A DNA stretch of 64,000 bases from Xiphophorus maculatus. Taxonomy: Eukaryota > Chordata > Actinopteri > Cyprinodontiformes > Poeciliidae. Position 1 is the first letter of the stretch; every line of letters begins with the position of its first letter. The notes beneath the pieces are model-generated. The model saw only the letters and a list, made by a program, of their open reading frames with translations. It was not told the origin of the DNA and did not search any database. Shown here in pieces: positions 1-62,437 of the stretch. The stretch is from NCBI RefSeq assembly GCF_002775205.1, contig NC_036443.1, positions 13,651,373-13,715,372 of the forward strand, in the 5' to 3' direction. A program made the translations under genes and the position numbers.

Positions 1-2841
1 AACAACAATACCTGTCCCCAAGCATGAGAACACGTGGATGCTCTGTTGCTGTACTTCCAAGATATTCCACCATATTTGTCCCAATCTGGTGTGTGGAAAA
101 AGCAGAAAGGAAGCCATTAGTCATTTAAAGGTAAGGAGGAACATTCCCCACTAATAATTTTTGACTAATTCTTATATGATTTTTGTTTGATACATTATCA
201 AAAGACCCTTGCGTTTGAAGTTTACATATACTAAATAAAAAGACATATTTTTGGTCAACGCTGTCTCATGTTATATGACATTAAAATTCTTATTTCACGT
301 CAATTAGGACTTGGTAAATTCCAGATTAATGACAGAGAGAACAGTGAGGGAAAAAAAGCATATTTGTTTTAAACTTCTGGTTTCAACTACATTTAAACAG
401 CAAAGAACTCATTCTGACATGAACTTACTGGCTGGACATCAATGAAGGCTTGCTGGACTTCAAGGTTGCTGGGTCTGACCACCTTTCGCCCAACTCTGTA
501 GGGAACAGCAGGGAGGAGTTTTGGCAGCAGCTGCAGTGCCACGTCACCTTGTTTGTCTGTCAAAGAAAAACTCAGATTAAAATGCTACGCAATCAAAAAA
601 GAGCCACAGGAGAAAAAAATTAGTTCAGAAAATGTTCCTTTTGAGCTTCAATACCTTGTGGAAGCAACTCAATCTCAGGCAGAAGACCGCTCTCCTCCTT
701 CTTCCCCATGCGAATGACCTTTGATGAGAACAAGGTGTTCCAGTTCTCTGTCAGTTTTCCACAAGACTGTGGATATAAAACGGCAAAGTCCTGCAAAATC
801 TAACAATCAGAAAAGACAAAAATACAAATCAAATGTAAAAGTGAAATGAACTATTACATTCAACCTTTCATGGGTGCTACAAATGTATGTTCTGGGTAGT
901 TTGACATTTTGAGTTTGATTGTAATTGTACATTTTCACATGGTATTGCAGTTTATTGTTTAACATTTAACTGATCTCAATATGAGGTATAACCTCACCAT
1001 CCCTGGTGTGTCCAACAAACGTGGGAACTCTGCAAAAATCTGCTGCATTGGGATTGTCCCACTTGAGCGGATCCATCCTGCGCGATATACTGCAGTTTCC
1101 CGCATGTATTGGACAACCTGGTCTGCGGGCCAGAAGTTATTTTTTAGCCATTCTGTCATCTGGATGGCACGCTCAGCACTGATGGTTGGTTCTGTGGGGA
1201 AAAAAATATTACAGGAATTAAAAGAAAAAAATGTGAGGTAATTCACAGCAATAAGAGCTTAGATTGCTGCTCAAAACAATAGGGCTTGGAAAAAGTCTAT
1301 GTGCTAGTACCAGGCAAACTTGATCTTTTTGGTGGAGCTTCTGGGGCTGAAAGCATCTTCTTCCTTGGTTGATGCCTTTTCCTTACATTACGGAGACGCT
1401 CCTCCAGAAAGCCAGTTGCTGGCCTGTGTTGTCTTCCGCGGGTAAACCAGGCGTCCTGAACATTTTTAACAAAAGAAATATAAAAGTTAAATGTTAGCCT
1501 TTCTGTTTTAATGTCCAAATTTTTTATTAAACCTACAACTCAAAGCTCAAACACCATAGTTACAATGATATTTAATGCTAACCATTGTGCAAGTTGTTGA
1601 AGTACTTGTGTGCTAGTTCTCTGAAGTGTGAAAACTTACATATCCTGTACCATGGCTGTCTCTTAAACATGGAAACTGGTCCACAATCGAAGATGCCAGA
1701 ATTGCTTTAGTGTCTAAAGATGGGCTGGAAACAAAAAAAATTACACTCAGTAAGACAGGCAAGTAAAATATTTTATTTTAATTAGTTATTGTAAGATGAA
1801 AACATAGAGCAGAAACCTTAAAACACAAACAATTTCCAAAAAATCCAGTTTTTATTAGCCCAACACATACTTTAAGACTTCTTACTGGAGAAATTTTACT
1901 TAGGTGAGCACTGCACAATGCCGTTAATGTTCTCACCAAGAGCAAAATGTCACAAAAACAACCTAATTGATCCAGTTTTTACAAGAAATACTCACTTTTC
2001 TCCATATTGATCCATCAAGTGTGACACAAGTGTTCTGACCATGCACCGTCTTTCACGAATGGATATATGCTGATTTCCATCAAGACTGATAACCACAGGT
2101 CTACCTTCAGGGGAGGCACTGAGGATCTCACGGATGTTCTACAGATAAATAGTGAAAAATAAAATAGCTGTTATTTAGGTGCAGTTTAATATTCTTAGAA
2201 ATTTAAGAAAAGATGAGATGTGTCATTTTTAATTTTAATTAGTAAGAATGGATGTCAATATGTTATGTAGGAAAGGTTGATTGTGCAGCTTAACTTACAA
2301 ATGCTGCTCTTCCAACAGAAGAAACTCCACTCTCTAATTCAGCATGTGGTGTAGGATCAGCATCTTCAGTTGTTTTAGGGCTAGATGTCCAGTGTGCTCA
2401 AAGTGAGCACACTGGAGCACACTATCTTGAAGTTGAATATGTGTTATGAATTACTCTTAGGTGAGAAAAAAATTCCTTATGTTATGTCCTAAAGACATCC
2501 CACATTTAAAACACACATATCCCATTTTGTCTTGTCCTATGACTCAAAGCATACCTCAAGAAATTTTGCAAAATGACGTTGAAATTTCAGACGAGGACCA
2601 AGGTGAGGAATCAGGGATGTCAGGCAGTTAGCATCCAAAAGAAAGAAGCTTTCTTCATCAATGTTTTCAGCTGAAATATATTAGAAATTACATATTAATA
2701 TTTTCAATCCAAAGAATTCCTGCCAATGCATGCTTTTAAGTACACACACACACACATGTATATACTTAACCTACCTTCAAAAGCAGGGATTAGGTCAGAA
2801 AGTTTCCATTCAGTCAGCTTCTGTTTTACAAACTCATCCAT
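1..2841 (-). CDS. SAM-domain protein, SAMD3-like teleost family (5' part; continues past left edge)
   Basis: This is the 5' part of a multi-exon gene read on the minus strand. Coding exons by splice signals and phase: 2841-2775, 2670-2555, a problematic exon ending at 2299, 2138-1996, 1724-1640, 1455-1311, 1191-998, 799-655, 556-429 and 85-1. The start ATG at 2841 has A at -3 and G at +4. Residues 1-61 (MDEFVKQKLTEW..., then IPHLGPRLKFQRHF) look like a SAM domain. Later exons carry hallmarks of the fish 'SAMD3-like' group: RRCMVRTLVSHLMDQYGEK, then DAWFTRGRQHRPATGFLEER, then IGTNMVEYLGST. I recall this family as numerous in fish and without an assigned biochemical role. All junctions keep frame except exon 3: no upstream AG gives the needed phase without crossing a stop. 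Skipping exon 3 keeps frame, as does an internal acceptor leaving 33 nt (2331-2299). The 799 acceptor could instead be 790. The gene may be intact with an optional exon, or decaying. Confidence 0.75.
2389..2415. repeat. Perfect inverted repeat, 12-bp arms, 3-bp spacer
   Basis: The arms CCAGTGTGCTCA and TGAGCACACTGG flank AAG. It lies just upstream (in transcript sense) of the third exon of the SAM-domain gene, where the expected splice acceptor cannot be placed in phase. An inverted duplication here could have replaced the original acceptor; that is inference. Confidence 0.9.
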
Positions 2842-4138
2842 CTTTCAGATCTTTCAGGGAAAAAAGTGATACAATTTGAGTCATTTTTTTCCTATGTGGA
2901 AAATAACCTGTACAATGTGTGCAAAAATATTTTATTTAGGACAATCACCAAATATTTTACAGCAAATAAGAAAAAAATAATAGGACATTGACTATATGTT
3001 TAGCAGCTAATAACCCTGAACAAATGTAAAACATCACTTTTTGGGACACCAGGAGAGATCACACTGTTCAGTCTTGTTTTCACCAGCGCAACCTGATACC
3101 TGACAACATGAAGCAGATCTGTGTAAACCCAAAAGTTAATCCAGCTGTTTTCACTAATAACTGTATGTTTTTAATTCCACCTTGGTGGCTAATAATGGCC
3201 AGAATAACATACGTGCGCATTATCTAATTTCTGCGTCATGATGATGTTGCTGCTTACATAAAATCATATGGTAATGACAGATACAGTATAGCCGTCAGTT
3301 TGTGTTAAGCATATGCCATCGCAGAGTGTGCTGATCTGACAGAACACCGGTGGGGACGACTCCAAACATGTCGGAGCACTTTTAAATTAAGAGATATTTC
3401 AATAAATCGAGCAGATATTTTATTGTTACATAGTTAAATCTTCACTAGAAATCTGTAAAAGTTACTTTTATTTGACAGAAAGCATATTATCCAACTTTAG
3501 CTTCCCCTCCTCTGCCATTGCTGGTGCATACTTTTTTTTTCTTCTCCACTGCCTCAGTCGGTTTCACCCAGGTTAGCCGTATAATAGCATAGCATAGTGT
3601 GTTCAGTAAGAAATAAAAGGCTTAATGAAAATGGCATTTAACAGTTATATTACTGATATATTACTATGAATACCTGTATAGCCTGTATCGCTTCGGACAC
3701 CGCTACTGCAAAGCCTCCAGTCCCTACTTGTCGCTATAGATCCGTTATTAGCATTCTGGCTAAGCTACCACCTTTTGCGCGCGCTAGTGAACGAGGCCCG
3801 CGAAAACCAGGGAGCAAAGCGCCATCTCTCCCTCCCACACCCTCACCTTTTTTTTTAAACCAAATTGGATAAATTATCTTTGAATTAAATGAATTATTTC
3901 AAAAACATTACCCTATCAACGAAGATGATAGGTTAAATCAAATAATTAAATTAAAGTTACATAAATTTAATTTAAAAAATCTGTAGTATATGAAGAATAC
4001 AATAACCCTATAAACTTTAAAAATATTATGCCATGATATTGTAACTTACCATGTTTTATTTGAATTGAGAAATCCAGTGTTGTCTGATCAGGTCACAGTC
4101 CAGTTGAAAATGGAGGTTTGTGAAGAGGGCAATGGATT

Positions 4139-4381
4139 TTTACCCAATTGGTTGGGTCAAACTGTATTTGACCCAACCAATTGGGTAAAGTGTTGAGTCA
4201 ACTGAACCTGAAACCTAACAGAATCAGTTAAGTGGAGTTCATTAAAACAAAAAAAAAAGTCAACCCAACCGCTGGGTCACTACTTTTGATCCAATATTGG
4301 GTCAAAGTAACCCAACATATGACCCAGCATCTCTTACCCAGAAGTTGGGTTATGAAAATAACCCAGCATTTTTTACTGTGT
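4139..4381. repeat. TTGGGT/ACCCAA-rich repeat (MITE-like) containing a 23-bp perfect hairpin
   Basis: The stretch is a degenerate run of TTGGGT and ACCCAA units in both orientations. At 4139-4161 and 4167-4189 there is a perfect 23-bp inverted repeat with a 5-base loop. The right boundary reads TTTTTTACTGTG, so the reverse strand begins CACAGTAAAAAATGCTGGGTT. I recall that as the start of a very common fish interspersed repeat; the superfamily is not assigned. Confidence 0.6.
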
Positions 4382-4683: not shown

Positions 4684-4684
<1 letters not shown>

Positions 4685-4716
<32 letters not shown>

Positions 4717-4718
4717 GC

Positions 4719-4779: not shown

Positions 4780-4781
<2 letters not shown>

Positions 4782-7971: not shown

Positions 7972-7984
7972 CTTTTATTCACCA

Positions 7985-8037: not shown

Positions 8038-8070
8038 TAAACCTCTCGAGGATTGAGAACAACTGCTAGC

Positions 8071-9588
8071 ATGTTGCAATCTTCCTCCAGAGCAGGTGAA
8101 ACTTTACCCCTCTGTAAGTTTCAGAATAAGTTGCAGAGATGGGGCCTGGTTCTCACCCTCTGCGCCGCCGTCCTCTGGCTTCCTGAGGCAGCGGGGTCGA
8201 CACTGAACTGCCATACGACGTGCATCTGCGCCTCGAACATCGTCAGCTGCTCCAAGATGGACCTGAGTGCCGTTCCCACTGGTCTGCCACTCTATACCAC
8301 TGTGCTGGATCTCAGCTACAACGCCATATCTCGGCTCAGATCTGATTGGACTACTGTCAAGCTTCCGAATCTCCATAACCTCTTGCTCAGCCACAACGAT
8401 CTCTTTTTCCTTTCCTCTGAAGCTTTTATAAATGTGAAGCAACTGCGCTACTTGGACCTGTCCTCCAACAAACTGCATATGCTGGATGAGTTTGTTTTCG
8501 AGCCTTTGGTCTACTTGGAGGTCCTCTTGCTCTACAACAACCAAATTTCACAGATTGACAGGACAGCCTTTGCCACCATGATCAACCTTCAGAAGCTGTA
8601 TCTCAGCCAGAACCAAATCTCCCGCTTCCCAGGGGAGCTGATCAAAGACAGGTATCGCCTGGAAAAGCTGAGCCTCCTGGACGTTTCGTCCAACAGGATC
8701 AAAAAGGTTCCCATAGATGACCTTAATATGCTGCCTGCCTGGATTAAAAATGGCCTCTACTTCCACAACAACCCTCTGCAGTGTACCTGTAATCTCTACA
8801 CACTCCTGGCCCACTGGTACATTCGTAAGCTGAACTCTGTTGTGGACTTCAGTGACGAGTTCACGTGCGTCCTGCCTAATTCGCAGAAAACCCAGATTTT
8901 CGATCTTAGTGGCGAAAGCATGAACTGCAGCACGTTCAAGGAGGCAGACGAAGAGGCTTTCCTGGAGCAAACGTTGATCCTCAGCTGTGACACCAAACAC
9001 CGTGACATGATGAAGACCTGGGCGTTGCCCGGGACGTCAGGAGACAACCAGACTGCAAAGGTCCTGCCAAACGGGAATCTGCAGATAAGTCCGGTGAGGT
9101 ACGATGACTCCGGGACCTACACGTGCTTTGCTGTGAGCGAAAGTTTTAATGAGACTATCTACATTGTGCTGAAGGTTCACAACTTCACCATGCATGGGGC
9201 TGGGGAGACTTTGAACACAGCTTACACTACCTTGGTGGGCTGCCTGGCCAGTGTGGTGCTGGTGCTCATGTACCTCTACTTGACACCGTGCCGCTGTTTC
9301 TGCTGTCCCAGCAAAGGGAAGAACCGGGGCGAGGACAGCATCCACTCCTCGATGCTCAGCGTCACTCCCACCCACGAGGACCCGGCGATGAAGGCCGAGC
9401 TGAACAGGCACGTTGCGTTCATCGACTCCAAAGACTTGCAGGGCCAGAATGGCAAGGTGAATCCCAACGGGGACGAGGACAATGACGACTTGGATGGAGA
9501 GGCTGGCTCTCTCATGAAGGGGAAGAGGAAGAAATCGGTAGCAGAGTCCATTAGCTCCGTCTTCTCAGACACTCCCATGGTGGTTTGA
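8071..9588 (+). CDS. amigo1: Amphoterin-induced protein 1 (AMIGO1), LRR/Ig adhesion protein
   Basis: The protein is 505 residues in one exon, close to the human length (about 493). Order: N-terminal signal region with hydrophobic core about 24-42 (WGLVLTLCAAVLWLP); cysteine-rich LRR cap (CHTTCICASNIVSCSK, about 47-62); six leucine-rich repeats to about 210, with LYLSQNQISRFP; C-terminal LRR cap from NNPLQCTC; one Ig domain (about 285-365) with the DSGTYTC motif; a transmembrane helix (about 385-410, TTLVGCLASVVLVLMYLYLT); and a cytoplasmic tail ending SVFSDTPMVV, nearly identical to the mammalian terminus. AMIGO1 is known as a neuronal homophilic adhesion protein and an auxiliary subunit of Kv2 potassium channels. 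The first in-frame ATG is 8071; the frame extends a few codons 5' without an ATG. It lies upstream of, and convergent with, the synaptophysin-like gene. Confidence 0.96.
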   Translation: MLQSSSRAGETLPLCKFQNKLQRWGLVLTLCAAVLWLPEAAGSTLNCHTTCICASNIVSCSKMDLSAVPTGLPLYTTVLDLSYNAISRLRSDWTTVKLPNLHNLLLSHNDLFFLSSEAFINVKQLRYLDLSSNKLHMLDEFVFEPLVYLEVLLLYNNQISQIDRTAFATMINLQKLYLSQNQISRFPGELIKDRYRLEKLSLLDVSSNRIKKVPIDDLNMLPAWIKNGLYFHNNPLQCTCNLYTLLAHWYIRKLNSVVDFSDEFTCVLPNSQKTQIFDLSGESMNCSTFKEADEEAFLEQTLILSCDTKHRDMMKTWALPGTSGDNQTAKVLPNGNLQISPVRYDDSGTYTCFAVSESFNETIYIVLKVHNFTMHGAGETLNTAYTTLVGCLASVVLVLMYLYLTPCRCFCCPSKGKNRGEDSIHSSMLSVTPTHEDPAMKAELNRHVAFIDSKDLQGQNGKVNPNGDEDNDDLDGEAGSLMKGKRKKSVAESISSVFSDTPMVV

Positions 9589-14700: not shown

Positions 14701-14991
14701 TAATAAAAGATACAGTTTTACATCTTGTGTCGTTTTCATTTGTCTATAAATCATAAGGCAATTAAACTGTGATGCTAACTTTATTGCAAAGTTCTGATCT
14801 GCTTTGCCTAATACATAGTGGGTTAAATCTGTGGATTAGGTGGTGCTCCACTCATAGCACCATATATAACCCTTCTATTGAAATCTAACTGTTGTTCATA
14901 CATTTAATATACAGTCAGTCAGCTTTAGTAGATTGACTAGATTGAGTAAATGCTTTTTCATAGATCATAGCTCAGTCAAGATGCTCTAAAC

Positions 14992-15204
14992 CGGCGTTTC
15001 CCAATTCCGGTCCTCAGGCCTCCCTGCCCTGCATGTTTTAGGTGTTTCCCTTCTGCTACACACCTGGATTGAATATATGGGTGATCAACAGGTTTCTGCA
15101 GCACTTGATGGTCATGCAATCATTTGAATCAGCTGCTCTGGAATAGAGGCACATCTAAAACATGCAGAGCAGGGGGGCCTGAGGACCGGAATTGGGAAAC
15201 GCTG
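14992..15204. mobile_element. hAT-type MITE, 213 bp, with 8-bp target-site duplication
   Basis: The element has terminal inverted repeats of about 29 bp, CGGCGTTTCCCAATTCCGGT... and CAGCGTTTCCCAATTCCGGT... on the reverse strand, differing at one position. It is flanked on both sides by CTCTAAAC (14984-14991 and 15205-15212). An 8-bp duplication and CAG-type ends fit hAT superfamily insertions. There is no coding capacity. The clean duplication argues for a fairly young insertion. Confidence 0.88.
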
Positions 15205-15979
15205 CTCTAAACCAGTGATCAGTGTTTTACTGCCCTCTGGTGGTAAAACATGCATCGTACAACCATTAACGTTAACCTGCAACGATTTATAAATGATTCT
15301 TTATAATCTAATACATTAGTATAAATAAAGTAAAGAGAAGGAGATCAAACATACTGATTGTAGTGGTGACAGCAAAATCTCTAAGCTTCTCAATTGTTAA
15401 GGTCAAAATTTGAATAAGGTCATTTTACCATAAATCAGCCAAGAGGTGCTCTGAATTTCTGACAGTCGTCAAAACAAGTAGAAAACTCATGAAGAGTCAA
15501 TATCTACTCCCAGAGAGCTCCAGATGATAAGAAAAAGTCGTTTCAAAGTTAGGAAATGCGTGCTCACTGCATAGCACTCCCCTGCTGAAGGAAAAGACGC
15601 ATGGAAGATTTTCTGAGGAACATTTGGACTAAAAATTTAATTCTTTGGATCCTGTTACACATATTTGGGGGAGAAACCGCACTTCATATCACTCCAAACA
15701 CATTGGTGCCAGGGGTTTCATCATACTGCACTGGCAGACATCATATAATTGGAGAAAATTCACTGTGACAGTCATGACAAGAATTAGAATATAAAACAGT
15801 GGTGGATGTTTTTTTTTCTTTTTCTTTCAGCAGAATAATCATCCTAAACAGATCTGAAGACTATAAACTGGTTCTAGAGAAATAAAATTTAAGCTGCATG
15901 GTAGTGGCCCAGTCAATCACAAAGCATGAATCTAACTGAATACTTGGGGAAAGTAGTAAATATCGTGTCATCATGGACG

Positions 15980-16190
15980 GACATTGTGTTGAAGGCGGAG
16001 TGTCAGAAAGAGCAGGCGCTTTAGAGACCGAGGCCAATTTCAAGGCATAAATTATGAATTTCTTTTAAGTTATGTTTGACATATACAGCATTTTCATAAC
16101 AATAGAAGGCAGTATAGTTACTTTATTGGGCTATAAAATGGCCCTGTATGCCTAGAAAAAACATAATACCTCCTCTTCACGTAACAGAAA
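15980..16190 (+). mobile_element. Interspersed repeat A, copy 1 (direct)
   Basis: Copy 1 shares GTCAGAAAG-AGCAGG, GAGGCCAATT-CAAGG, ATTTCTTTTAAG, ATAACAA, TATAGTTAC and CTATAAAATGGC with a copy near 25.12-25.30 kb, and in reverse complement with one near 20.98-21.20 kb. Ends are approximate. No coding content is visible; it is probably a small non-autonomous element. Confidence 0.6.
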
Positions 16191-17326: not shown

Positions 17327-22786
<5,460 letters not shown>

Positions 22787-24060: not shown

Positions 24061-25114
24061 CCTCTTCCTGTCAGAGATTTTCCTAGGGGACTTTTGATGG
24101 CTAGCCCCTTACCTGACACCCCCAAAACGCATACATGTTAGGGCTCCATGAGGACACCGGTGTTGTCATCATGACAGGTAAGGGATTAAGGAACTCACTT
24201 TCCTTTCTTTGCCTCTTATTTGTAAGAAATGTCTACATTTTTAAGTGTCACGATGGCCTCCCTCTCTCTTTCATTGTTACTTGACTTTTTTCCCCCCACA
24301 TCTGGAAAGACAAACAAAACTTTTTACTGCAGTAAAGTATTCAAAACTCTGCAGGATCTAAGATTTTCACCACAAGTCAGATTTGACTTTCTACATCTGG
24401 CGGTCCTGTCCCACTTACGTGGGGGGGAAAAAAAACCCGTCGCTTGGTTAGACTGGTAATCAAAGCGCCATGAATGAGGTCCAGAGTTTCTTTGTGGGGA
24501 TGGGAGAAACATAACAAAAGAATAACTGTCTCTCTCCGCAGCACTCTGAAGCCATTCCTCTCGGCTAGGCACATGACATCCTGTTGTAAATGTGCCAAAA
24601 AGCACCTGAATGACTCACCGACCTCAATGCATCCACTGATGAGAAGTTGTGTTTAGCCTGTAGCCAGAAAAAAAGAAAATATCTGCACAAATGCATGAAA
24701 CAGTCCTGATCGAAATGTGGTCTCTGCATCGTCTGTTGCTAATTTCACCTCAGACTGAGATCTTTTTAACTGTTGCAATAAATTATGTAAATTCCTCTTA
24801 TCAATGTGCATACTTATATTTAATATAAACTACTAAACTTAGCATACAGTATCTTTTTCATCTTTGCTAATACGATCTGGTTTAAAATTACTGTAAGTGG
24901 GGCTAATATTCCCAGAGAAAGAATTTCTTCAATAAACCCACAAGTGACGGATTGCTGCAGATTCATTTTGACATGAACACACTTTTCCACTCAGCTCCAT
25001 AAGACTAGCAGCAGCAGCAAATAGAAAACATTTGGTAGAACTGCGGGTCTGATGACCTTATCATACAAACTACCTCTCAGTAAAGCACTTCTAAGAACAG
25101 TTGTTCTCAGTTGT

Positions 25115-25300
25115 GATGACTGAGAGTCAGAAAGGGCAGGAGCTTCTTAAAGACAAAGAGGCCAATTCCAAGGTGTCACATTACAAAGTCAAATTTCTTT
25201 TAAGCATTTTTATAACAACCAAAGGTAATATAGTTACCCGATTGTTCTATAAAATGGCTCTATGTGCCTGGAAAATACATAATGCCACCCCTTTAAGTGG
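25115..25300 (+). mobile_element. Interspersed repeat A, copy 3 (direct)
   Basis: It shares AGTCAGAAAGGGCAGG, GAGGCCAATTCCAAGG, ATTTCTTTTAAG, TATAGTTAC and CTATAAAATGGC with the copy near 15.98 kb in the same order and orientation. It has no coding content. Boundaries are approximate. Confidence 0.6.
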
Positions 25301-37100: not shown

Positions 37101-40100
37101 ATTCCTGGCTTTCGCCCTCGGCTACCTGTAAATGCGTTCTCCTTGTGTTTTTTTTAATTTTTTTTATTTATTTCCAGATACCTCTGTGCAGTCTGTGGTG
37201 TCCTTTGATCAGGGAGGAGAGTGGGTTCCCCTGCAGAGACCTGCCAACACCAAGTGTGACGCTACAGCCAAGGATCCAGACAAGGTATAATTAGACAAAG
37301 CATTGCCGTGTTTATGTTCTCAATGTTTTTGCGCATCTGCAGGTTCAGGTGTGATTCTAACCTTTGCAGCAACCGCATATCACTTTGGATTGTGTTTCTC
37401 TTGAATCTACAGTGCAGTCTCCACATCCATGCGGCTTACAGCATTGCTATGAAGCTGGACGTCCCCATGCCGCCCCTGACGGAGCCAAACGCTGTGGGTC
37501 TAATCATAGCTCATGGTAATCATGTTGACCCTGTAGGACAGAAATGTTTGAAACAAACCCGATTGCTTTTGGCGCTCTGAGCATTTTTGACGTGTTTTTT
37601 TCAGGCAGCGTCGGGGACGCCATCTCTGTGATGAAGTCGGATGTTTATGTGTCCGATGATGGAGGCTACACCTGGATAAAGGCTCTTAATGGGCCCCATC
37701 ACTACGCCATGCTGGACTCAGGAGGGCTGCTGGTGGCTGTGGAGGACAATGGCAAACCCATCAACAAAATCAAGTGAGTTGTTTAGTTAAAATGAATGTA
37801 AAGCCTGGGGTGATTTGCTTCTGTAGCTTTTGTGATTGGATAGATAAAATATTTGGCCTCTCACTTATACACCAACGAATCCCTCTCTGCAGGTTTTAAG
37901 CCTGTACTAAACAAGCCTGTAATTACAGGATTTGCTACTAATTCAGATGAATCGTATAAATATCAATGCTTTGTGCAAGCGAGCTCCACCCTGTCCTTTC
38001 TTCGACTTTCATACTTTTATTCTAGATTTTCAGCACTCTTTAACCTTCCTGACAGATTTTCCACCGATGAAGGACAGTGCTGGAGTATTTATGAATTCAC
38101 CAAAGAGCCAATCTCGTTCACGGGGCTGGCTTCAGAGCCGGGAGCTCGCTCCATGAATGTCAGCATCTGGGGCTACAAAGATTCCCTGATCACCCAGAAC
38201 TGGGTCTCCTTCACCATCGACTTCAGGGAACTGCTCACCAGAGACTGCAAGTCATGCAATAAAAGAGATTACTCCTAATTCCTAACTGCATGTCTTCAAG
38301 GATTTTGACCTTACTTATGATTTTGTAGGTAACGACGATGACTATGTGCAGTGGTTGGCCCACTCTGATGACATCAGTGACCCGACAGACGGCTGCATGC
38401 TGGGTTACAAAGAGACGTTCTTGCGGCTCAGAAAGGACTCCGTTTGCTGGAATGGACGTGATTACACTGTGAACACACAGCCAACTCCATGTGCATGCAC
38501 CCTGGACGACTTCTTGTGGTGAGATACAGAGAAGGTGTTTCTGTTCTTGTTCAAACCTGAAAAGTGGTTTTGCAAATGTTCACGGCTCTTGAGCTATGCC
38601 ACAGTTTGTCACCTTGCAGCGGCTAATGTACTCTAATAAGATTTTTATGCAAGAGATGACAACAAAATAGTTTCTAACATGTGAAGTAGAAGAAAGCTAT
38701 GCATGGTTTTCAAAATCATTTACAAATAAAACCTGAAAAGGGTGTCATGCATTGTCATTCAGTCTGTAACACAATCCCCTGAATGAAATCCACTTTAACA
38801 GTGATGGTCCACCTAAACTGGAAACCAGGGAAGGAGTGCATTAATCAGAAAAGGGCATCCAAGAGAACCACAGCTCAGGAGGGAGAATCTGTTGACGGGA
38901 TAATTATGAGTCACGTACTCTGGTAATTTAAGGAGGAGCGGCAAATAAAATTGTTGAAATAGCACCAAATCCTGTTTTCAATCCAAGTACCGTGTGTGTC
39001 TAAAAACTACCACTGCATCATCCTGAGCACGTCGTCCCCACAGTGACACACAGTAGTGGAAGCATCAGGTTTTGGGAAAACCTTTCCTTAGTAAGGCAGC
39101 AAGGCCAGAGATTCTGCTTGTAGCAGAATATGAATTATCGTCACACATTTCAGATTTTTTTTTATTCGAACAAACAAAAAAAGAAAACCAGGAGTATTTT
39201 TTTTCTCTACAAAGCTGTTATATGGAAAATAGTTAAAGGGTATGAATACCTTATTGATAAGAGAGTATTGATCCTGATATTGTGTGACTCCTTGCAGTGA
39301 CTTTGGATACTCGCGTAAAGAGAACAGCTCTGAGTGTGTGGAGCAGCCGGACCTGCAGGGCAAAGTGTTGGAGTTCTGCCTGCATGGCAAAGAGGAGCAA
39401 CTGCAGACCAAAGGGTAAGGTTTCAGATTCTGTCAAATTCGAGTTTAATTACATCGCTACGGTTCACTTCCCAAGTGATGTATAAGCATCACATGAGTTA
39501 GCTCTGTACTTTGGACATTAATGTTCCAGAACTTGATTTAGCTGGTTTCTAAGTGAGTAATCTCTGTTGGTTTCTGGAAAATTTGTTCAGTATTGGTGGA
39601 GATTTACGTGTTGCATTGTTGATTTAGCTGAAGCCATACTAGGTACAAGGAGGAAGTTTGTGTTTTGTGTCAGTGCTTGACAATTAGTTCCTTAAAAATA
39701 AGGAACTAATTGCCATGCAGAAAGAGGTGAAAGGAAACTAATGAGGGTCACAGTGAAGCTTGTTGTAAGAGTGAATTTTACTCAAAACTAAACATTTGGC
39801 AAGTTTTACTGACATACTAGTCCATCTCTAATTACTATATAGCTTAACAATTATTACTGCACATTGTATTTGCAAGGAACAGCAGATAATTAAGATATGT
39901 GTACTAAGGATTTAAATTTTTTTCTCTTATATTGTTTTTTGAAGTCAGTTAAAAAGATTAGTTGTTCTTTTCTTATGCGCAAATCCCTGAACACCTATTA
40001 GACACGTTCATGCTGGACAACTCTAAAATAATCTGTGTTTTGGTCCTCAGGTACAGGAAAATCCCTGGAGATAAATGTGAAGGAGGACAGATGCCTCAAC

Positions 40101-43100
40101 GTAAAGAGATTGACCTCAGTAAGAGGTGTGTCAGTGATCTTGTATCTCCAGAGCTTCAGGTTGGTGCCTCTGCGAAAGCAAACCGCAGTCATTTGTTTAT
40201 CTGTGGTCTGGTTTTGTGTTTGCATTTCTCACATTTCTGTCCGTTTGTGTTTTCTGCAGACAGACGGTCACTCCTCCAAGTCTGTGGCCATACTGTTAGC
40301 GGTCGTCGTCGTCATGCTGCTGAGCGTCGCAGCAGGAGTGGTCTTTGTCAGGAAGTACGTCTGCGGCGGCAGGTTGGTGTCATTTACCTTATAAACCACA
40401 GGCCTAATGTATCCTCTCCTCACATTTTGAATGGCTTTTGGTTTCCTGACAGTCTTTTTAATGTGTTCTGCAGGTTTTTGGTGCACAGGTACTCTGTGCT
40501 GCAGCAACACGTTGAGGACAACGCTGCAGACGGGATAGATGAGCCGCTGGACACCAACCACGCCCCCAACGGCAAAATAGAGTTTCACGATGACTCTGAC
40601 GAGGTATGTCGGAAAAAACTGTTTTCTCCTTAACATAACGTAAAATATCTCACACACACGCAGTCTTTGGGTTTTCTACACTAAATGTAAGCTGGTTTCT
40701 TTCTGTATAGAATTATAAATACTGAGCAATTAAAGTAAACTAAAGAGTACATGAAGGTTTTTATTTGCAGTAAGCAGAGAAGTGCATCCTTTTTGCATCA
40801 CCTTCTTGCAGGTGACGAATATGTGGAAAAGGATTGCATTTTTAATTTTAACTATGGTGAATGTGTGATTTTTATAGTGCATCACTTCCTGAACTGTTGG
40901 CAATATCACTGGACTATTGTAACAGCCTTGTTTATTTGTTCCAACTGCATCTAATACAAAATACAGAGTCTTATATTGTCACTGGTTTTTAAATACTTGA
41001 ACAAATTTCTTAAGTTCTAATATTTCTCGTTAACGGTAAAAAAGCAGGTTAACTTTTAAAATCCTGTTGCAAAGTATTAAGGTGTCTGCTCCTCAGTATG
41101 TGGAGGAATGTGTAGTGGGAGTTAAACATTAGGGTGATGGCCTTTTTACCACTCTGAAAGCTTTCCAACCTGAAAGCCTTGGAGCTTATCACTAAAGATA
41201 AATCATCAACACACCAGTGGAAACATTCAGAAAACTGGTCAGCAATTCGGGTTTCGCTGCTTTGATGCCAATAAAGGTTATGTTTGGAATTGAGTCATTT
41301 TACTTTATTCAATTTTTTTTTTTTTTTTTTTTTGTGTGTTGAATTTATAAAAATGTATATTAATCTACCAGAGGTATGAACATCTGCAGAGTCCTCCAGG
41401 GGACATGGGAATTTATTTTCTTTTGCGTTCCCTCGCAATAATCTACTGATCAGTTATAATTGAATACTGTAAGACCTTTTTACGGTGTACTTTCTTCCTT
41501 AATACAAGGTTATGTGAGGTTTTTCCATGTATGTTAATATCTCTTTGTGAAATATCTGACATTTGATATATATATTTTTTTTTAATATAGAAAGGCACCA
41601 CAAACCTATGATGTAAACAGAAACTTTCCATAAGTAGGAAAGAAATAAAAATACATCCAACTATTTGGACTATTTCTGAATTATTATTGCGGGTAATAAG
41701 TCATCTGACAGTTTTAATTGTGTCTCTGTTGTGTTTGTAGTCTGAATGTTTTAAAGGGCTGCTTTCAGTGCCGTTCCATCTTAGCCTTAACGGACATAAA
41801 CAGGCAGTAAATAAATCGATTTTCAGTCAGTGTTTTGGACCAAACGTGTTTACTATTATTAAATCTTTGGTGCAAAAAACTGATTGAAAGTCGATTTATT
41901 CACTGCATGTTTATGTCTGTTAAGGTTGAGATGGAACTGAACATGAAAACGGCCCTTTAGACCATTCAGACAATCAGCACAACAGAGACACAATCAAAAC
42001 TGTCAGATGACTTATTACCCCACGATAACTCGGAAATAGTCCATATTAGGATGTATTTTTATTTCTTTCCTACTTACGGAAAGTTTCTGTTTATATCATA
42101 GGTTTGTGGTGCCTAAAGAAAAAGATATAAAACTTCAGATATTTCACAATAAGATATTAACGTTCATGGCAAAACCTCACATAACCTTATATTAAAGCAG
42201 AAAGTACGGCAGCCACCGTAAGAAAGGCTTACAGTATTTAATTTTGCCACATGAACTGATCAGTACAGTATTGCGAGGGAACGCAAAAGAAAAAATTTCC
42301 CTCGTGTCCCTGGAGGGCTCCGTAAACATCAGAACTGTGCATGAAATGTAAATAATTTAAATAAAACCTGGTGGCCTTTAGCAGAAAACTGAAAATCAAT
42401 CATCATGATCCAAAACAGTTTGACGACTGATCACAGAAGAAATATAAGAGTTGAGTTAATTTTAAGGCTTTTTACACATCTTTAATTTTAAGGCTTTTTA
42501 CACAGCTATCATTGGTAGCAATGATAGCTACCAATCAGCATTGAGGATTCTGTATATTTGCAATTACGCAATAGTAAGCATTGATTATAACTTTTTACTA
42601 ACCCACTATCTCATAATAAACATATGACATTGTGATAATTTATTTAACAATTGAAAAAGTGCAATGTTTTTTTTTTTTTTTTTATTAAAGTGAAACCAGG
42701 ATTATATTTGTTCAAATTCAGATCATTGCTTGTTCTAGCTAACTACTGGCTGAAAAATTTGCTCTGTTTCGATGCAAATGCTTAAACTTTCATTACTTTT
42801 AACATGAGCGTTCCATCCAACGATCCCTCAGTTGTGTTTGTTTGGCTGGAACACTGAAGTCAGTGTTTCAGCGTCTCTGGAGCCACTGATTGTTCTGGCC
42901 AGCTTCATTCTGAGCAGAGGTAAGACTCGGCTCGGGTTAATTTATGAGTAAACATGTAGTAACCCGAAGCGGACATTGCCTCACCCAGACTCAACACTGA
43001 AGCTCTGCAATGCGACACCAACCTTTAAAAAGGCGACACAGAAACTAGTTATCTTCACACTCTGAAGGGATCTTGGAGGTTAGACATATGTACGTCACTT

Positions 43101-45405: not shown

Positions 45406-46850
45406 GTGTTTACTTATTTCATGTGAATACCATCAGCTTAAAAAAAAGTTTATTAATGGTTTAAAATCTTGTATACTGGAATTTAAATGTTGTGTTTCTA
45501 AGGTCTTAAATGCACTTTAAGTTCTTTAAAGTTTTGTTGTCACTGTCGACAGTTGATGTAATAGCCTCCATATTGACATTATGCTAATTTAAAAACCTTA
45601 TTAGAGTAGAAATGCACACAGAAGTCAGCTACTAGTCAATACATTGTATCTGGTTTAAGCAATAGTTGTATTTTTGGTTTTGGTATGTATACATGTCTGT
45701 ATAACATGTAATGGACATTAAAAAAAACATTTTTTACACTTTCACAAATAGCTTGTATGTAAAAACTAAATCTGTATTTGACATTACAATCACAACTTTC
45801 ACTGTAATTTCTTGGGATTTTATGTGATCGGCCACAATGAAGAGTGTGTTTTAAAATGGAAGGCGTAGAATTTGAAATCTGAAGTATGGCATGCATTTAT
45901 ACTCACCCTTTATTCTCATACTCCAAAATAAACTCTGAAACCACTGATTGCTTTCTTCAAACATGCAGAAATCAAGATGCACTTTAGCAACTGGAGATTT
46001 CTGCAGGTAGGCAAATTAAACACAACACCTGCAGGATGTGGTTATGCTGCCTCAGACTGAAGTTGCTGCTATGACTTCTTCCTGCGATAAATGATACTGA
46101 TATGGGTGTGGCATAACACAAGGAACTCTGAATGAGTGTGTCTGAATAATGTATTTCAAAATGTCTTATTAAACCCTGATGAGGTTGAGACATGTGACAC
46201 TGGAAATGCTTAAATATACTCATTAATCTCTGATCCTGACTTTGAACATCTGCAAACTCTGTGTATTAACAGTTTGTTTTTAGCTTTATTTGGCCTCGGT
46301 CCAAATAAAGCTAAAAAATAATTTGAATAGGGAAATTTAAGAATGACACTTAATAGTTTTGGAGCAAAACACTTGTCATCTAGTGTTACTGGGCAAGGAA
46401 GTTAAATCTACACCTTCAGCAAGCATCCATTATTTAAGAGTATATCTATGCAAATTATACCACTGAATGACTCATTTTCCTTCTATAAATATTAGATAAG
46501 AATTTAAATCTAGGGAGAAGGAAGATTCAGAAGTTTTTGTAGAGATAACAGCCTGTTTTCCCTCAAGCTGAATGGCTTAACATGTTCTCTCATATGTCAA
46601 AAACCTTTTGCAAGGTTCTCTTACATATTTTCTGAGAGCTGAATACAATTTTTAAAAAAACATATCTAACTTACTTTCCCTTCATTTAGGTGTTACTCTG
46701 AGTAAATCAGTTTGATTAAATTCTAATAAAATGTGCAGCTGTAATGTGAAAAGCATTAATACTGCAATACAGCACATGAAAAAAAAAACCAAATATATAT
46801 ATATTTAAAAAGCTAAAAGAAATGGCTTCAATATAAAACTAATTCCATGG
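45406..46850. other. Short convergent intergenic region between SORT1 and neugrin
   Basis: No gene is seen. Repeat-like text near 45.65-45.96 kb (GGGATTTTATGTGATCGGCCAC...) resembles interior parts of the CAGTGCCTTGC family. A 17-bp perfect inverted repeat at 46277-46317 is listed separately. Confidence 0.5.
46277..46317. repeat. Perfect inverted repeat, 17-bp arms, 7-bp spacer
   Basis: The arms TTTTTAGCTTTATTTGG and CCAAATAAAGCTAAAAA flank CCTCGGT, in intergenic DNA downstream of SORT1. Confidence 0.92.
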
Positions 46851-49120: not shown

Positions 49121-49121
<1 letters not shown>

Positions 49122-49210: not shown

Positions 49211-49212
<2 letters not shown>

Positions 49213-50463: not shown

Positions 50464-53400
50464 ATGGAGCAGTACACCACTGCCACCACTACAACAGGGG
50501 AGCAGATTGTTGTGCAGACTGCTAATGGACAGATCCAGCAGCAGGTGAGACCACACTTTGAGCAGTTTCTTTAACAGTGCTTTGTTTTTTTAACCTCATT
50601 TTATTTTCTAAAGCAGCCAGATAAAAGGAGCCCTAAAGGAAGTCACATTTATTGCTTTGATATTTACCAACAAGCCCATGGTTACTTCAACCAATGCCAC
50701 ATTTTAAGTGAATATGTTTTCTCTTTTGTTTTCTGGCAAGAAATAATGTAAGCACGTAACAAAGAGTAGGAAAACATAACATTTTTCAAAGGTTATCTGC
50801 TTATTGAATTATGATGGTCTAAATTTGATTTGATTTTGTTTTTGGGTTTTTTTGTAAAACAGTTTTTTTTTTGTTTGCCCTGCATCTTTCTAGTCCTCAG
50901 CCATTTTGTTCTTTATTATTCACCAATGCCAATTTTTCAAAAAAGCTAACCTGAATATAATGATTTCAAATAAATAAAACAATCCTTTTTGAAAATATAA
51001 TTTTCAGCATATGCCTAAAATATATCTTTTAATATTTTACTTTGTAAAAATACACTTCTTTAAGGTTTGCACAATATCAGAAATTATTTTTGATCCTGTT
51101 GCTCAAAATGGTGATGACATAACTTAATTAATCCACATTTTCTGCCTTTACCATCTCTCAATATCTTCACCTTTCTCAAAAAGCTTTAGTATTAGACTGG
51201 AATCTATCCAATAAACTGATTATTTTGTTACACACAGTGATGTTGTAATTACTACTGCAATTTGACATACTATGCAGTTCTAATTTCAGTATTTAATGCC
51301 ATGTTTTTACATATTCATGTATAAATATGGCATTATTTATACATAAATATAAATAATGCCATATAACTATTCAGTAATAGTTGTCGTCCGTTATCTTGAT
51401 ACAACGATCAAATTGTTCTTATCTGGATTCTGGGTCAGTTTGATTCGTCTGTTAATTCGTCATTCCATTTAATTCCTATGTGTCACTGGTTTGTTTCTTG
51501 TCACTTCCATTTTGGACCACTGCGTTTAACCGATGCCTGTTGGTTGTTGAATATTTCTGGATATTTTATATTATACAATCACTAGAACCACTGACTATTT
51601 CTATTTTGGTTGGAAAATGACCAATGATGCAAGCAGGAGTGACACCCTGCTTTATAAACAATTCGTCAGTCACAGAATCACATTTCCTTTCTGTATACAA
51701 ACATTGGTTGTCATAGTGGGAACAAAATGTTCCCAAAGCCTTGTGAACTGGTGTAGTACATGGAAGGCTGTTCCTTGTTATAAAAGTGACCAAAACATTG
51801 TCATAATTTTCATTTATATTTAGTTGATTATTACAAAATACTTTTTTTTATGTCTAAGGCTTGTTTACAAAAGCCATTTTTTTATAAATGTTGTAATGTG
51901 TAGCTTAGTTGTTTTGTCCCATTAACTTAATCTTCTTTACTGATTTATTTTTGATCACTTTAACTGTTTTTGATGACTATCTTTTTAAAACAATGTAGCT
52001 TTGTTTTTCTATAGATTCTATAGACCTTTACCTTTATCAAGTTACGTAATCCACTTGTGTCCTGAAGTGACCAGTTTGAGTCAGATATGAGTCACTGGTA
52101 CATGATTTCTACAGGATCCTCTCAGAGCTGGTGGATACAATGTGGATGATTTTTGGAAAACATTGTACCAAAAACTATCCAGTCTGCGGAAAAATACTCA
52201 GGCGGCTTGAGAGCTTTTTCTCAAAACAATAATTAAAATATAAAGCCACAAGGCTCGAGATAATGCGGACAAAGCGTCTTGTCGTCCTTGATTGTGCTTT
52301 AATTATTTCCATCCAGAAGACAAAGATCACTGAAGTATCAGTCGGCAAAGGTATGAGTAATTTTGGTCTTTACCGTACTTGTCTGAGAGTGTAACGTCCC
52401 GCCTTGCCTGCAGACACAAGGCACAGTGACGGCTGTGCAGCTGCAAGCAGAGGCGCCAGGCCAGCAGGTGCAGACACTCCAGGTAGTGGTGTCACAGCCG
52501 CCCTGTCACTGCAATAACGCTTTAATAAGTGACCAGTTTGCATGCCGTACCTAGGGCTGTTCTCATGACCTGTCTGTGGCGTTTGAACCATCGTCTTTCT
52601 CCCCCCCGCCTCCAGCATTTCCTGCAACTACCTGTACTGCATGTTCCTCAGCACAGTGTGTTGTGTTTGCCAGCCTGCAGTGTGTGCGGCTTTCCTCCAA
52701 TGGCTGTGAAAGAAAAAAAAAACAGAAATCAGTGTTTTGTCTAAGTTGTGTTTTCTCTGCTTTAAAGAAGGAAAAAAAACAAGTTCAAAACGTTCTTGTT
52801 TTTTTAGATGTACTGTTGGAAGCACGGGTAATGTGAACTTTATGGAGTTCAGCATTGAAAAGGATGCATCCACTGTCACTGCTGTCAGCTGCATCTCATT
52901 CATAGCTGTGATGATGATGTTGTCTCTGTATTGTTTTTTTTTTTTGCATTATAACAACTGATGAATTCTCTCAGGCTTTTTCCTTTGGGACTTATTTTCT
53001 TCCACAATATGCATTTTATGCAAGTTAAGAGTTAAGTTCATCCTTATCAGTCACACACATCTTATCTTACACTTGTACATTCAGGAGACAAAACTTCACA
53101 GTGATACATTTTCAGTTTTCTCCAAAGTTTTGTGTAACTGAGGTGTATTTTACTTGCATGCAGCCCTTCATGTCCCATGTGGGCGCTGATGGGTCACACT
53201 GCATGAGGGCCACTTTAATAGCTTTGTATTCCTCTCTGCAGGTTCAGGGGCAGCCCCTCATGGTACAGGTGAGCGGCGGACAGCTCATCACATCGTCAGG
53301 CCAGCCCATTATGGTGCAAGCCATGTCAGGGAGTCAAGGTCAGACCATAATGCAGGTTCCTGTGTCTGGAGCTCAAGGTCTGCAGCAGGTAAAAGACAAG

Positions 53401-56400
53401 TGTCCATGAAGATCTGTGATTAAATTTAACAATCGGAGAATGTAATGTCACATGTTGCCCATGTTTATAGCGATGAGACCATTTTTGTCTTGGTTTATTA
53501 TGGTATTGATGATCCATTAAGACACATTTAATTGTCTCCTTAGATCCAACTATTGCAGCCTGGTCAGATACAGCTTCAAGGTGGTCAGACTCTGCAGCTC
53601 CAGGGCCAGCAGGGTCAGCCTCAACAAATCATCATCCAGCAGCCCCAGACGGCTATCACTGCTGGACAGAACCAGGTCATTAATTTTGACAGACTTCAGC
53701 ATCATTGACCTTCTGTTGTACCACAGAAGACAGAAACTAGCAGTCTCTGCTTTCTGGTTTTGCTCCTGCAGAAACGGAAAGTGACAATGACGGTTGGATT
53801 TTTGATTATAAGCCATTTTTAATCCAGCTGCTAACATTTCTAACTCTTCACTTACTCTGGCATCTCAGTAAATGGACTTTACTCCATAGAAACATCATGA
53901 CAGGACATTTTAGCTGTTCTGGTTGTGTAAACCGTTAAAATCTTTACGCATCACTGGTAACCTGCCCTGGAGTATTCACAAATATGACTTATCCTTTAAA
54001 AATACATTTCAGTTACTAAACTGCTAGATAATTCCCTCCAAAGGGTAAAAATGAGTACAGGAAGTCTATGTTTTCTAATATCTCTTCTCTATGCTGTAAA
54101 TTAGAGCCAGCAGATCAGCGTACAGGGTCAACAGGTGGCACAGACAGCTGACGGGCAGACCATCGTCTACCAGCCCGTCAACGCAGATGGCTCTGTTCTA
54201 CAGCAGGGTACAATTATTTCTTCTTTTTTTGTTGTTGTGTGCAAACTTCATAAGCATATTTATTTATTTTTAGCTGTGAGTCTCAACAATGCCTGTGCTA
54301 ATTATTTCTCTCCAGGAATGATCACAATCCCCGCTGCCAGCTTGGCAGGTGCTCAGATAGTGCAAGCAACAGGGGGCGCTAACACCAACACTACCAACAG
54401 CGGCCAAGGCACTGTGACCGTCACCCTGCCTGTCTCCGGCAACATGGTCAATGCAGGTGGAATGGTCATGGTAAGACCCTGTGCAGAGGTACTCAGCATC
54501 TTTATTTTTTTTTCCTGTCTTTTTACATCTAGACTGACACATGGGTGCAGAGTTTGGGGAAACGAGCACCAACAGTAGCCAATTTCTGGTTTTGTCACAG
54601 AGGTTGTTGGGATCATTTCAGTGTTGTCTGAATATGTTAAGTTATACACTCATGAGTCATCACACCTGCTATGTGTGTCCTTTATGTAAACCCCTCTAGC
54701 ATTTTCATGATTAATGTTCATAAGACTAATAGATTTTAATCAATTTTAATTTGACATAGTCCACCTTTTGGGGCTTTTGTTGGTTTGCAGAATCATTTGA
54801 TTGACTCTGTGAATGCAGCAATCAGGTCTGAATCTCCCCTCTGTTAAAACTAAGTACTTAAAATGAAAACTTCTGTTTAGTTGCAAAAGGTGTGATGGCT
54901 GTGAAGTGTTGTATGGAAACGTGCCATGACTGATTTCTACATCTGCATATTTTTAAGTTTAAGTTTTTAAAATGGTAAGGGTTTTTGAGTACTTTGTTCA
55001 TGTTTCTTTTCCTGCGCTTACCAGATGGTGCCGGGTGGAGGCGGCGTTCCCACCATGCAGCGTATCCCCCTCCCGGGAGCTGAAATGCTGGAGGAAGAGC
55101 CTCTGTACGTCAACGCCAAACAATATCATCGTATTCTGAAGCGAAGGCAAGCCCGGGCCAAACTGGAGGCTGAGGGCAAGATCCCCAAGGAGAGGAGGGT
55201 ATGCAGTGCTTTGTTTCTCTTAGAGAAAAACTACAATAAACTGCCTTTACTGATGGTGGTCAATAAGACTCTTGAATAAGCTGTCTATCTAGTAACTTGT
55301 ACTTGTGTGAAAATGTCTCAAATATTTAACCTGCAGTGGAAAAAAGTGGACCTGTTTTTGAACTGTACTAATTTATTTTGGCAACAGTTTCCGTCTTGGT
55401 TTGTTTTTCCCATCCCCAGCCGGGACGGTTGGAAGTTGTTGCAGTATGACAAAATTAGTAAAACTACCACAGTTTCACAGTGTAGTAGCATTGTTTAGGT
55501 AGTGTTATGTCTGTTCAAGTGTATCAGAGGGAAAGTGTAATGTTGCCATAGGACTGCGTGTATACTTGTTCATATTGTCTATGTAGGACCTTTTTTGGTA
55601 TAATCACTTGTCTTCTGAAGTCCAACGGGCCTTATAGGGACCTGACCTTAATACATTGGACCCGTATTTATAGGCATAGGGGTTAGAGGTATGGGGCCAG
55701 TTAACTTGAGAAATTGCCATTTATTCTTAATATAAAAATAAACTTGCAGCATGTGTGGGTTTTTCTCTTTTTCCTTCAAAACAAATAAACACAAACTATA
55801 AAACTTTATTATGATCATAGTAAGTTGCTTGCTGTTTGTACATCATGGAAAAAAGTCAAGAATAATTCTGGTACTGGGGTATGACCTTCTATAATCTAGT
55901 AGTAATACAGAAGGGAATAAATCAATGAATTTAAATTTTTCAATGGACCAATAATTTTTGGTCCATTGAAATAGTTTTTAAAAAAAATGTATTTCCTTGT
56001 CTCCTACAGAAATATCTACACGAGTCTCGTCACCGTCATGCTATGCAGCGTAAGCGTGGAGACGGAGGGCGGTTCTTTTCCCCTAAAGAAAAGGAGGAGG
56101 CGGCTTTAGGCCTATCGCAAGTAAGAAGTTATGATGGGGGGGGAAAAACAAGCTCTAAAGTTGCAACTTGTCTGTCATACATTTTTAAGCTTTCATAATG
56201 GATGAGTAACTTTATATTTAAGATGCAAGCATGTTCCTAGGCATGTGTGAAAACTCTTGGAAATCATGGAATTTTATTTTGTATTTTTCCAAGTCTGGAT
56301 AAGTACAGAGAGACAAAAATTGAGCATAAAAAATGCAATTACAACAATTTATTTCTTATTTTATCATTTAAAAGATAAGCTTCAGAATTTTTACAAAGAG

Positions 56401-60157: not shown

Positions 60158-62346
60158 GTAAGAAACGTGATGCCCGCCATCACTTGCTGCCATTGGGCAA
60201 AAGAACAGCCGGTCACATGTGAGGAGGACACGTTCACGTTGGTGCGGAGAACTGTGCTGCAGTCTCGGCTACTGCTGGACAGTATGGGGAAAGAAGCCAC
60301 AGTGAATGCGTTGCAAAGCCACACTCTTTAACATTTAGTTAACTAACATGCAGTTAGTTAGCACTAACATGCAGTTGGTATTAAAAAGCAGGGTAATTCA
60401 GTCGGGTTAGTAGTTTCAGTGGGACATACTGTATATATTTGTTCCCACTTCACTTGGTATGAAAGAAGTCGTTATAGAAGAATTACAACTGATACTGTAA
60501 TACTGTGTGACATGTCATTTTAAACAATATTACCGTCAAGCGTTAGGTATCCTTATACTGTTTCTATACAATGTTAATGTAAATATTCTTTGTTTAGGAA
60601 ACTAAACCTAAAGCTTACATGTAAGGCCTTAGTAATCTCCATGTGGGGGGGGGGAGCTTCCACACTAAGTATGTGGTAGTTAATGCCATAGAAGATTTTC
60701 TGTGAGAAAACATTCAACCCCACATAACCTCTGGTTTATGTAGCTTTTCTTAGAGGCGCAGGAATGTGGATGTTAAAATTGTAAAAACGATAAGAATCAA
60801 TCAATCCAGCAAGAATCAGAATCAGCCAACTTTCTCTTGAACGGCTCTGCTCAGTGACTGGCAGGTCAGATATTATAAAAGAAAATAAACTCTATTTGTT
60901 ATGTGATTCAAGACTTACAGCTCCCTCTATTTTCCCTCCAACCAAGAGCATGCACTTTGATGCATTTCTTTGAGTTTAATAAAAATCCAGTAGGGGTTAG
61001 GAACACAGGCTTATTGCAGGATATTCTTGTTGCATACTTTTTAATTTTCAGTTGGATTAAAATCTACTTCTTCTACAAACCACTTTTTAAAATAAGGTTA
61101 AGTCCTTCAAACAATCTGAATTGTTTCAAAATTAAAACAGAGAATTTATACTTGAAAGAAAACTGATTTAGATTTTTTTTTTTAGTGTTCCCATGCAGTA
61201 TTGATAAAATATATTGTGTGTTTTGAAAACACCAAAGAGCAAAAAGACTATTTTTAAATCTTTGATTTCAGTCCTTGGTAAAGTGACAAAATGCACGGTT
61301 TATTCAATCTCGATCAGAACTTGAAAAGCACTTTTTTCCATCTTCTCTTCATTACATGTATCCAAAGTAAGATACCCCACGACTTCTGTTCAATAATGAT
61401 GCATTGTTTTACGTTTAATTTGAAATATATTGCTGCGCTTTGATGCATCAATGAATATAATCTTATCTCTTTATTTTTAGTTCAAAATCATCCCTTCTAC
61501 AAAAGAAACTAATGTACATATTTTTCCTTTGATGTCTGATAGCTCTTAGAAATAAAATGTCGAATAAGTCAAATTGGGACTTGTCAAAGAAAACTGGATA
61601 TCCAGTTCGCCAAGAGAAAGCTGAGTGGTGCATCCAGCTCTACCATCTTAACCAGTCCAACCATCTAGCTGTTGAACTCTGTCATTGTTGACCCGGTCAG
61701 CTTTGACTAAGTTCAGGCTTCTCATGTGGGTGGGAATCATTAGTTTTTGGAGCAGCTTGATAAGAGTGTATTTACTGCACACTGTGCACCTGAGGGAAAA
61801 GACTTTGAATGTCTTGGCTGCTTTACAACGGCGCAAAACAAAAAAGACTTTCTCTAGTCAGATGTTCATATTACACATCCACTGCTGGTTCCCAGCACCG
61901 GATAAATCTGAGTGTTTATTCACTGCCGGTTACAGGTCGAGGGCTGTGTTTCTGAGAACCGGCTCACATTTAGAGGAGAAGATGTTTTTTTTTTTTTTTT
62001 ATCTCCAGAAATAGCCATTCGTTTAGTATTTTGTTCCCTGAATATGTAACGTCCTTAAAAAAAAAAAAAGATACTCGGTATAATTGTTTTACAGTAGTTG
62101 CTAGAAGGCTTAGATTCTCACAGCAGGATAACCTTTCACTCTGTCATTATTTTTATGTTCCTTAATTTGTATTCTTGTGGAAAATAGGAAACTTTAGATC
62201 AGCAATGTTTATATTTTTTACATCTTCATCATGAATGCAGTTTTTAAATGTTGTTACACGGCCTGAAACTGAGTATACTTTAAGTTTTAAAAATCAATTT
62301 TTTAATCCATTTGATGTAATCTGTTACATGTGATACATGTAACAAA

Positions 62347-62437
62347 TTACATGTATCTGTTACATGCTTACATGTAACAGATACATGTAAGCATCTGTTA
62401 CATGTAACTAAGCATGTAACAGATGCTTAGTTACATG
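62347..62437. repeat. Nested cluster of three perfect inverted repeats built from ATCTGTTACATG units
   Basis: Pair A: 62347-62366 with 62371-62390 (20-bp arms, 4-base spacer). Pair B: 62388-62404 with 62413-62429 (17-bp arms, 8-base spacer). Pair C: 62401-62415 with 62423-62437 (15-bp arms, 7-base spacer). B and C interlock, and all reuse the same ATCTGTTACATG core, so the block looks like successive inverted copies of one short word. Confidence 0.95.

Follow-up and report, generated by a model that had tools for sequence, protein, structure and literature searches.

Short perfect hairpins in a Xiphophorus maculatus window: probable scars of inverted local copying

Hairpin loci in the window

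We examined short inverted repeats in a 64,000-base stretch of the Xiphophorus maculatus genome (contig NC_036443.1, here C1, 13651373-13715372), which we call the window. The assembly holds 704.3 Mb in 101 contigs, with C1 at 32.3 Mb, and the window has a GC content of 38.6% by base counts. The repeats are hairpins, each written here as arm length/spacer length in nucleotides. A sequence-only reading had listed twelve perfect inverted repeats in the window. All twelve are present letter for letter, except that the first is a 13/3 hairpin at 2388-2416 and not a 12/3 hairpin at 2389. They do not stand as twelve separate sites. Because the last three (62347, 62388 and 62401) overlap in one cluster at 62314-62437, we count 10 independent loci, none of which is assigned to a strand.

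Perfect hairpins lie at 4139-4189 (23/5), 31637-31666 (14/2), 32024-32084 (28/5), 46277-46317 (17/7) and 55938-55971 (14/6). At 2388-2416, 9 nt of the arm are copied a third time at 2415-2423, and at 32024-32084 a smaller 7-nt inverted repeat sits inside each arm. The hairpin at 39674-39719 has a perfect core at 39681-39712 (14/4), beyond which each arm lengthens to 21 positions at the cost of 2 mismatches. Other loci are compound. At 42456-42535, a 23-nt direct repeat (42456-42478 and 42482-42504) is followed by a perfect hairpin (42504-42529, 11/4). Another inverted repeat, with arms at 42511-42519 and 42527-42535, overlaps this hairpin. Three arms are combined at 51294-51364, as 51294-51335 (19/4, 2 mismatches), 51317-51344 (11/6) and 51325-51364 (17/6). 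The 62314-62437 cluster consists of alternating inverted copies of a unit of ~12-20 nt. Beyond the twelve, we found inverted repeats at 35595 (10/1), 48770 (10/8) and 51317 (the 11/6 repeat that overlaps 51325), more arms in the 62-kb cluster, and imperfect hairpins at 3946, 33328 and 42845.

The hairpins had also been placed entirely in introns or intergenic DNA. We looked at this placement for 55938-55971, a hairpin that stops 38 nt short of the NF-YA exon beginning at 56010. The same hairpin contains ACCAAT, the CCAAT-box core bound by NF-Y, probably by coincidence.

Two further structures lie close to this material. The imperfect hairpin at 33328-33361 (15/4, one mismatch) stands ~13 nt past a stretch shared with a dispersed repeat in one sampled piece of the genome (L028). 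About 180 bp from the 42504 hairpin, a 0.9-kb imperfect palindrome (~81%) at 41389-42320 resembles a large foldback element.

Excess over chance and a genome-wide sample

The window holds far more hairpins than chance provides. With arms of at least 11 and spacers of 0-10, we counted 16 centres against a mean of 0.30 in 100 dinucleotide shuffles made in 2-kb blocks, and with arms of at least 14 we counted 11 centres against 0 in the same shuffles. The claimed excess thus survives a dinucleotide-matched control, which did not give similar counts. These centre counts include simple-sequence arms and take overlapping centres of one cluster separately. For non-redundant counts, simple-sequence arms and overlaps were removed first, and a microsatellite origin was rejected on this basis. 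With spacers of 0-100 allowed, 12 non-redundant loci remained. Eleven of them had spacers of 2-7, as DNA turn-back needs, and one had a spacer of 12. Nearly all of the window's excess falls at spacers of 2-8. In 20 shuffles, each 2-nt spacer class as far as spacer 13 held 0-0.15 loci, and direct repeats of equal length with gaps of 0-13 numbered four in the window.

We extended the palindrome search to a sample of 28 pieces of 10 kb (280 kb) from the same assembly, each named by an L-number. With arms of at least 11 and spacers of at most 8, the sample contained 25 loci and the window 11. Since 25 loci were found outside the window, this class of hairpin is general in the genome. Arrays or repeat families account for five of the 25, and 20 remain without them. 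One sampled stretch (L010:6-61) carries a 12/4 hairpin twice in tandem, with the left arm of the second shortened.

A survey of perfect inverted repeats in 118,019 genomes (PMC13155455) allows a comparison under the same definition. The window has 8.1 inverted-repeat bases per kb, and the survey gives a Metazoan mean of 4.55. It describes eukaryotic repeats as mostly of zero spacer with AT-rich arms, whereas 0 of 18 in the window have zero spacer. Among the literature matches listed, judged by titles and abstract openings, none reported an excess of short hairpins in fish.

Several loci carry more than two copies of their sequence. Four of the 10 window loci (2388, 42504, 51317 and 62322) have further exact copies, at least 9 nt long, of hairpin-related or adjoining sequence within 60 nt. 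When 60-nt flanks were compared with 60 random places for each locus (window and first sample, 3 of 45 loci having been dropped beforehand), arm copies were found at P<=0.05 for 15 of 42 loci against ~2 expected. The window loci among these were 51325, 62347 and 62401.

Perfect hairpins also outnumber decayed ones. Among hairpins scoring at least 11, those with 0, 1 and 2 mismatches numbered 10, 2 and 1 in the window and 30, 17 and 1 in the sample, where five more had 3-9 mismatches. Perfect arms had been read as a sign of recent origin or ongoing correction. The counts lend this weak support, although detection itself falls with mismatches. Steady birth with slow decay would be expected to give flatter mismatch counts for long arms. 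Hairpins may be lost rapidly, may have become more frequent recently or may be re-corrected. Each mismatch makes a hairpin harder to detect, however, and we do not press the point.

One-armed copies and ancestral states

Hairpins inside repeats can be compared with other copies of the same repeat. We applied this ancestral test to 106 hairpins from the window and sample (score of at least 10, spacer of at most 15). A repeat match overlapped 31 of them, and 13 were spanned by a BLAST alignment. Among the 18 with a match that did not span them, five were aligned singly: L002:4105 and L015:9400 proved one-armed by MAFFT, and L008:6425, L028:743 and L028:3612 were uninformative on ancestral state. 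One-armed copies were thus found for four sampled hairpins (L003:558, L002:4105, L015:9400 and L021:305). In each of these, the second arm repeats 10-16 nt of the adjacent sequence as its reverse complement. An inverted copy of a neighbour, together with an ancestor that lacks the second arm, is what a template switch would leave, and both were seen at these four loci in clear or fair form.

The hairpin at L003:558-591 (14/6, one mismatch) contains a pure insertion of 15 nt, AAAGCATTAAATTGA, between AAATT and GGGCC. The insertion is absent from 8 other aligned copies (L004 aligns poorly). Of the 8 BLAST alignments that span the site, seven matched the arm at 0-0.29 and the eighth at 0.57. Fourteen bases of the insert pair with the neighbouring CAATTTAATACTTT save at one position. 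There the insert implies G and the source arm now reads A; among the other readable copies, five have G and two have A. Where the consensus reads CCTT, the insert copies L003's own CTTT, and therefore the template was the local copy. By eye, a CAATTT run is common to the junction and the copied stretch.

At L002:4105-4145 (16/9), GTTGGTA in a 90%-identical copy in L009 corresponds to 20 nt in L002. This replacement comprises two patches that are reverse complements of downstream GCACTGTTG and TGCAGCAAGAAGGTCC, with edge bases shared. At L015:9400-9425 (11/4), ~7 nt were replaced by 13. The family reads TTAAAG-AGGCGGT-ATTATGTATTTTCC and L015 reads TTAAAG-AAATACACAAAAT-ATTGTGTATTTCC. The new arm reproduces the other arm in the form found in L015. 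The hairpin at L021:305-330 (13/0, one mismatch) lies in a tandem array in which two of three other units read CACCTCTTCGTG, of equal length, for the left arm. The unit with the hairpin reads CCCCCAAAGAGG(C/T), as does the remaining one, and this block is a near-reverse-complement of adjacent GCCTTTTTGGGGG; the flanks are nearly identical. We infer the direction of this change.

Origin of the hairpins and rival explanations

These data suggest, with a probability of roughly 0.75, that the hairpins are scars of independent inverted local copying events. A growing 3' DNA end would fold back, or switch to the opposite strand, at a short local complementarity. It would then make a reverse-complement copy of ~10-28 nt of the DNA beside it before returning. 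By one such event a perfect hairpin would arise from ordinary sequence in a single step, and several rounds in some events could produce the compound clusters. Because four sampled hairpins have one-armed copies, sequence comparison supports snap-back or strand-switch synthesis as a process that makes such hairpins in this genome. The ten loci of the window were presumably made likewise.

A number of observations weigh against this reading. The 13 spanned hairpins comprise two clear cases (L003:558 and L021:305), two weak ones (L024:9311 and L006:4499) and nine with no one-armed copy among the aligned repeats (L003:7334, which is mixed, L006:4511, L009:8309, L017:2663, L019:422, L019:733, L020:6413, L020:8125 and L020:8624). 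In these nine, both arms were matched about equally or in a mixed manner, and most are array-like hairpins common to the copies. The weak case at L024:9311-9336 has its new arm matched at 0.5-0.7 and its other arm at 0.6-1.0, in repeats ~70% alike where ordinary divergence is possible; that at L006:4499-4523 has arms matched at 0.82 and 0.36 in one copy. The L002 case depends on one close copy, and the ancestral state was readable for 0 of the 10 window loci. Among short insertions that distinguish repeat copies, inverted copies were not in excess (1 of 161 at 9 nt or more against 0.6 expected), in a scan that left out L021, was swamped by the L011 minisatellite and did not recover the L002 event. 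Its single hit, L003:578-597, is the L003 event described above. Long arms are richer in the window than in the sample: at 14 or more, the window has 9 in 64 kb and the sample 8 in its 280 kb (P=0.0015, binomial). With the 62-kb cluster counted once, the window figure becomes 8 (P=0.004). For arms of 11 or more the corresponding values are P=0.06 and 0.10, and in all these comparisons the window was picked after the fact and not at random. Such a surplus of long arms is not predicted by a uniform process. In the first 200 kb of the sample, the excess over shuffles peaks up to spacer 13 and persists several-fold to spacer 100, part of the long-spacer excess being arrays. Finally, of the 15 loci with a flank signal, at least 7 are part of repeats that are AT-rich or array-like, and 62347 and 62401 belong to one cluster.

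The strongest alternative concerns which machinery did the copying. In polymerase-theta end joining, broken ends fold back, extend on themselves and join. The resulting templated insertions are inverted, come with small losses and often reflect several rounds. We rate this explanation a little short of an even chance. The sequence-only reading had named replication template switching; its strand-switch copying is borne out at the four sampled loci, but replication itself is not singled out, as theta end joining leaves the same inverted insertion. Such hairpin products are predicted by replication template switching (PMC8794818, PMC7954356) and by polymerase-theta stem-loop synthesis (PMC11292364). 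We give the two about equal odds. The polymerase involved is a matter of inference, and so is the trigger, be it fork stalling or a DNA break.

Size and spacing are compatible with theta. Its inverted insertions are given as 3-30 bp in PMC11292364, and the most favourable configuration in Drosophila as 1-3 bp of pairing with a loop of 6 nt. The window hairpins, with arms of 11-28 and spacers of 2-8 (2-7 in the non-redundant set bar one), fit in size and loop only, and the longest arms, at 28, come close to the top of the range. About 7 nt were replaced in both L002 and L015, and L002 has two patches; the 42504 locus joins a 23-nt direct repeat with two inverted repeats. In contrast, L003 is a pure 15-nt insertion without loss and L021 an equal-length replacement. 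The small loss and multiple patches of L002 lean towards theta, and the loss-free insertion and CAATTT run of L003 lean towards strand switching. According to PMC11811205, zebrafish polq is strongly expressed in gonads and early embryos need it to repair breaks, yet polq mutants are viable and fertile. Replication template switching also predicts nearly the same products.

Both processes have been described in other systems. Short-range template switch mutations, treated by a four-point model in great apes and RNA genes, likewise involve a one-event inverted copy of a neighbour and an ancestor without one arm (PMC7954356, PMC8794818); here the events were read from repeat copies inside one fish genome. 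The theta insertions outlined in PMC11292364 and PMC4490562 are alike in size, short loops, small losses in some cases and several rounds, and differ from the loss-free L003. Small inverted triplications linked to FEN1/rad27 share the copy/inverted copy/copy layout of 51294-51364 and are ~10x longer (mean 148/160/148 bp; PMC13334657). The mechanism of inverted copying is already known, and it is possibly its local frequency that is unusual.

It is improbable that small foldback (MITE-like) transposons, inserted ready-made, supplied the hairpins as their ends or as their entire bodies. Short palindromic elements exist in fish, the 33328 hairpin (outside the ten loci) adjoins a dispersed repeat, and the 32024 hairpin has a 9-nt AT-rich direct repeat, TTTGTAATT, on both sides. 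These copies of TTTGTAATT lie 4 and 21 nt off the edges and are unrelated to the arms, and reading the flanks by eye revealed no consistent target-site duplication at the window hairpins. Self-comparison of the window gave no matches between different hairpins, and the hairpins with 200-bp flanks had no copies in the window and the first 200 kb of the sample. For 32024-32084 alone we searched the genome, scoring best candidates only, and found one place in the assembly. Ten unrelated arm sequences without copies argue against a transposon family, which we rejected within that scope.

It is more doubtful still that selection keeps these sequences as functional hairpins (microRNA precursors, splicing structures or paired binding sites). 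The 55938 hairpin does lie 38 nt before a 3' splice site, but the hairpin sequences are unrelated, the same class is scattered over sampled genome pieces, and microRNA precursors have loops unlike the short loops here. Rfam covariance models gave 0 matches at the gathering score, and Rfam RNA families were rejected.

Least probable of all is an assembly or library artefact from inverted chimeric reads, as contigs are chromosome-sized, chimeras seldom survive consensus, and the arms of the L003 hairpin are one base apart by later divergence, which is not expected of a fresh artefact.

The repeat family with the L003, L015 and weak L024 events has 11 copies with 462 substitutions over 2920 sites. 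Two fair events and one weak event per 462 substitutions amount to one per 150-230. Humans and chimpanzees differ by about 35 million substitutions. Set against ~2750 events per pairwise ape comparison, a figure from PMC7954356, this gives apes roughly one event per 13,000 substitutions. The rate per substitution thus looks much higher in the fish family. It is only a lead, because thresholds differ, the family was chosen for its hairpins and there are two or three events.

A bolder proposal, which we consider rather unlikely, is that inverted local copying is a major class of germline mutation in this fish lineage, at tens of times the ape rate per substitution. It would act perhaps through theta-type repair prominent in gonads and early embryos, and would seed perfect hairpins, some by splice sites, at about one per 6-11 kb. 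If the rate holds, fish would routinely gain new stem-loops through one-step hairpin birth, among them candidate RNA hairpins, splicing structures and fragile sites. Ordinary copies of dispersed repeats within one assembly would suffice for reading ancestral states, so mechanism and rate could be tested without sister genomes or mutants.

Other features of the window include an LRR-Ig gene at 8041-9588, a neugrin gene on the minus strand at ~46.9-47.5 kb, and exons near 28.1 and 40.4 kb that we take, by eye, to be sortilin-like. A palindrome at 14982-15214 has arms of 112 nt, 72% complementary, around a 9-nt spacer. An unclassified dispersed repeat has three window copies (15960-16177, 20960-21300 and 24986-25310), which are 15-19% off the consensus, and 11 copies of at least 90 nt in 344 kb.

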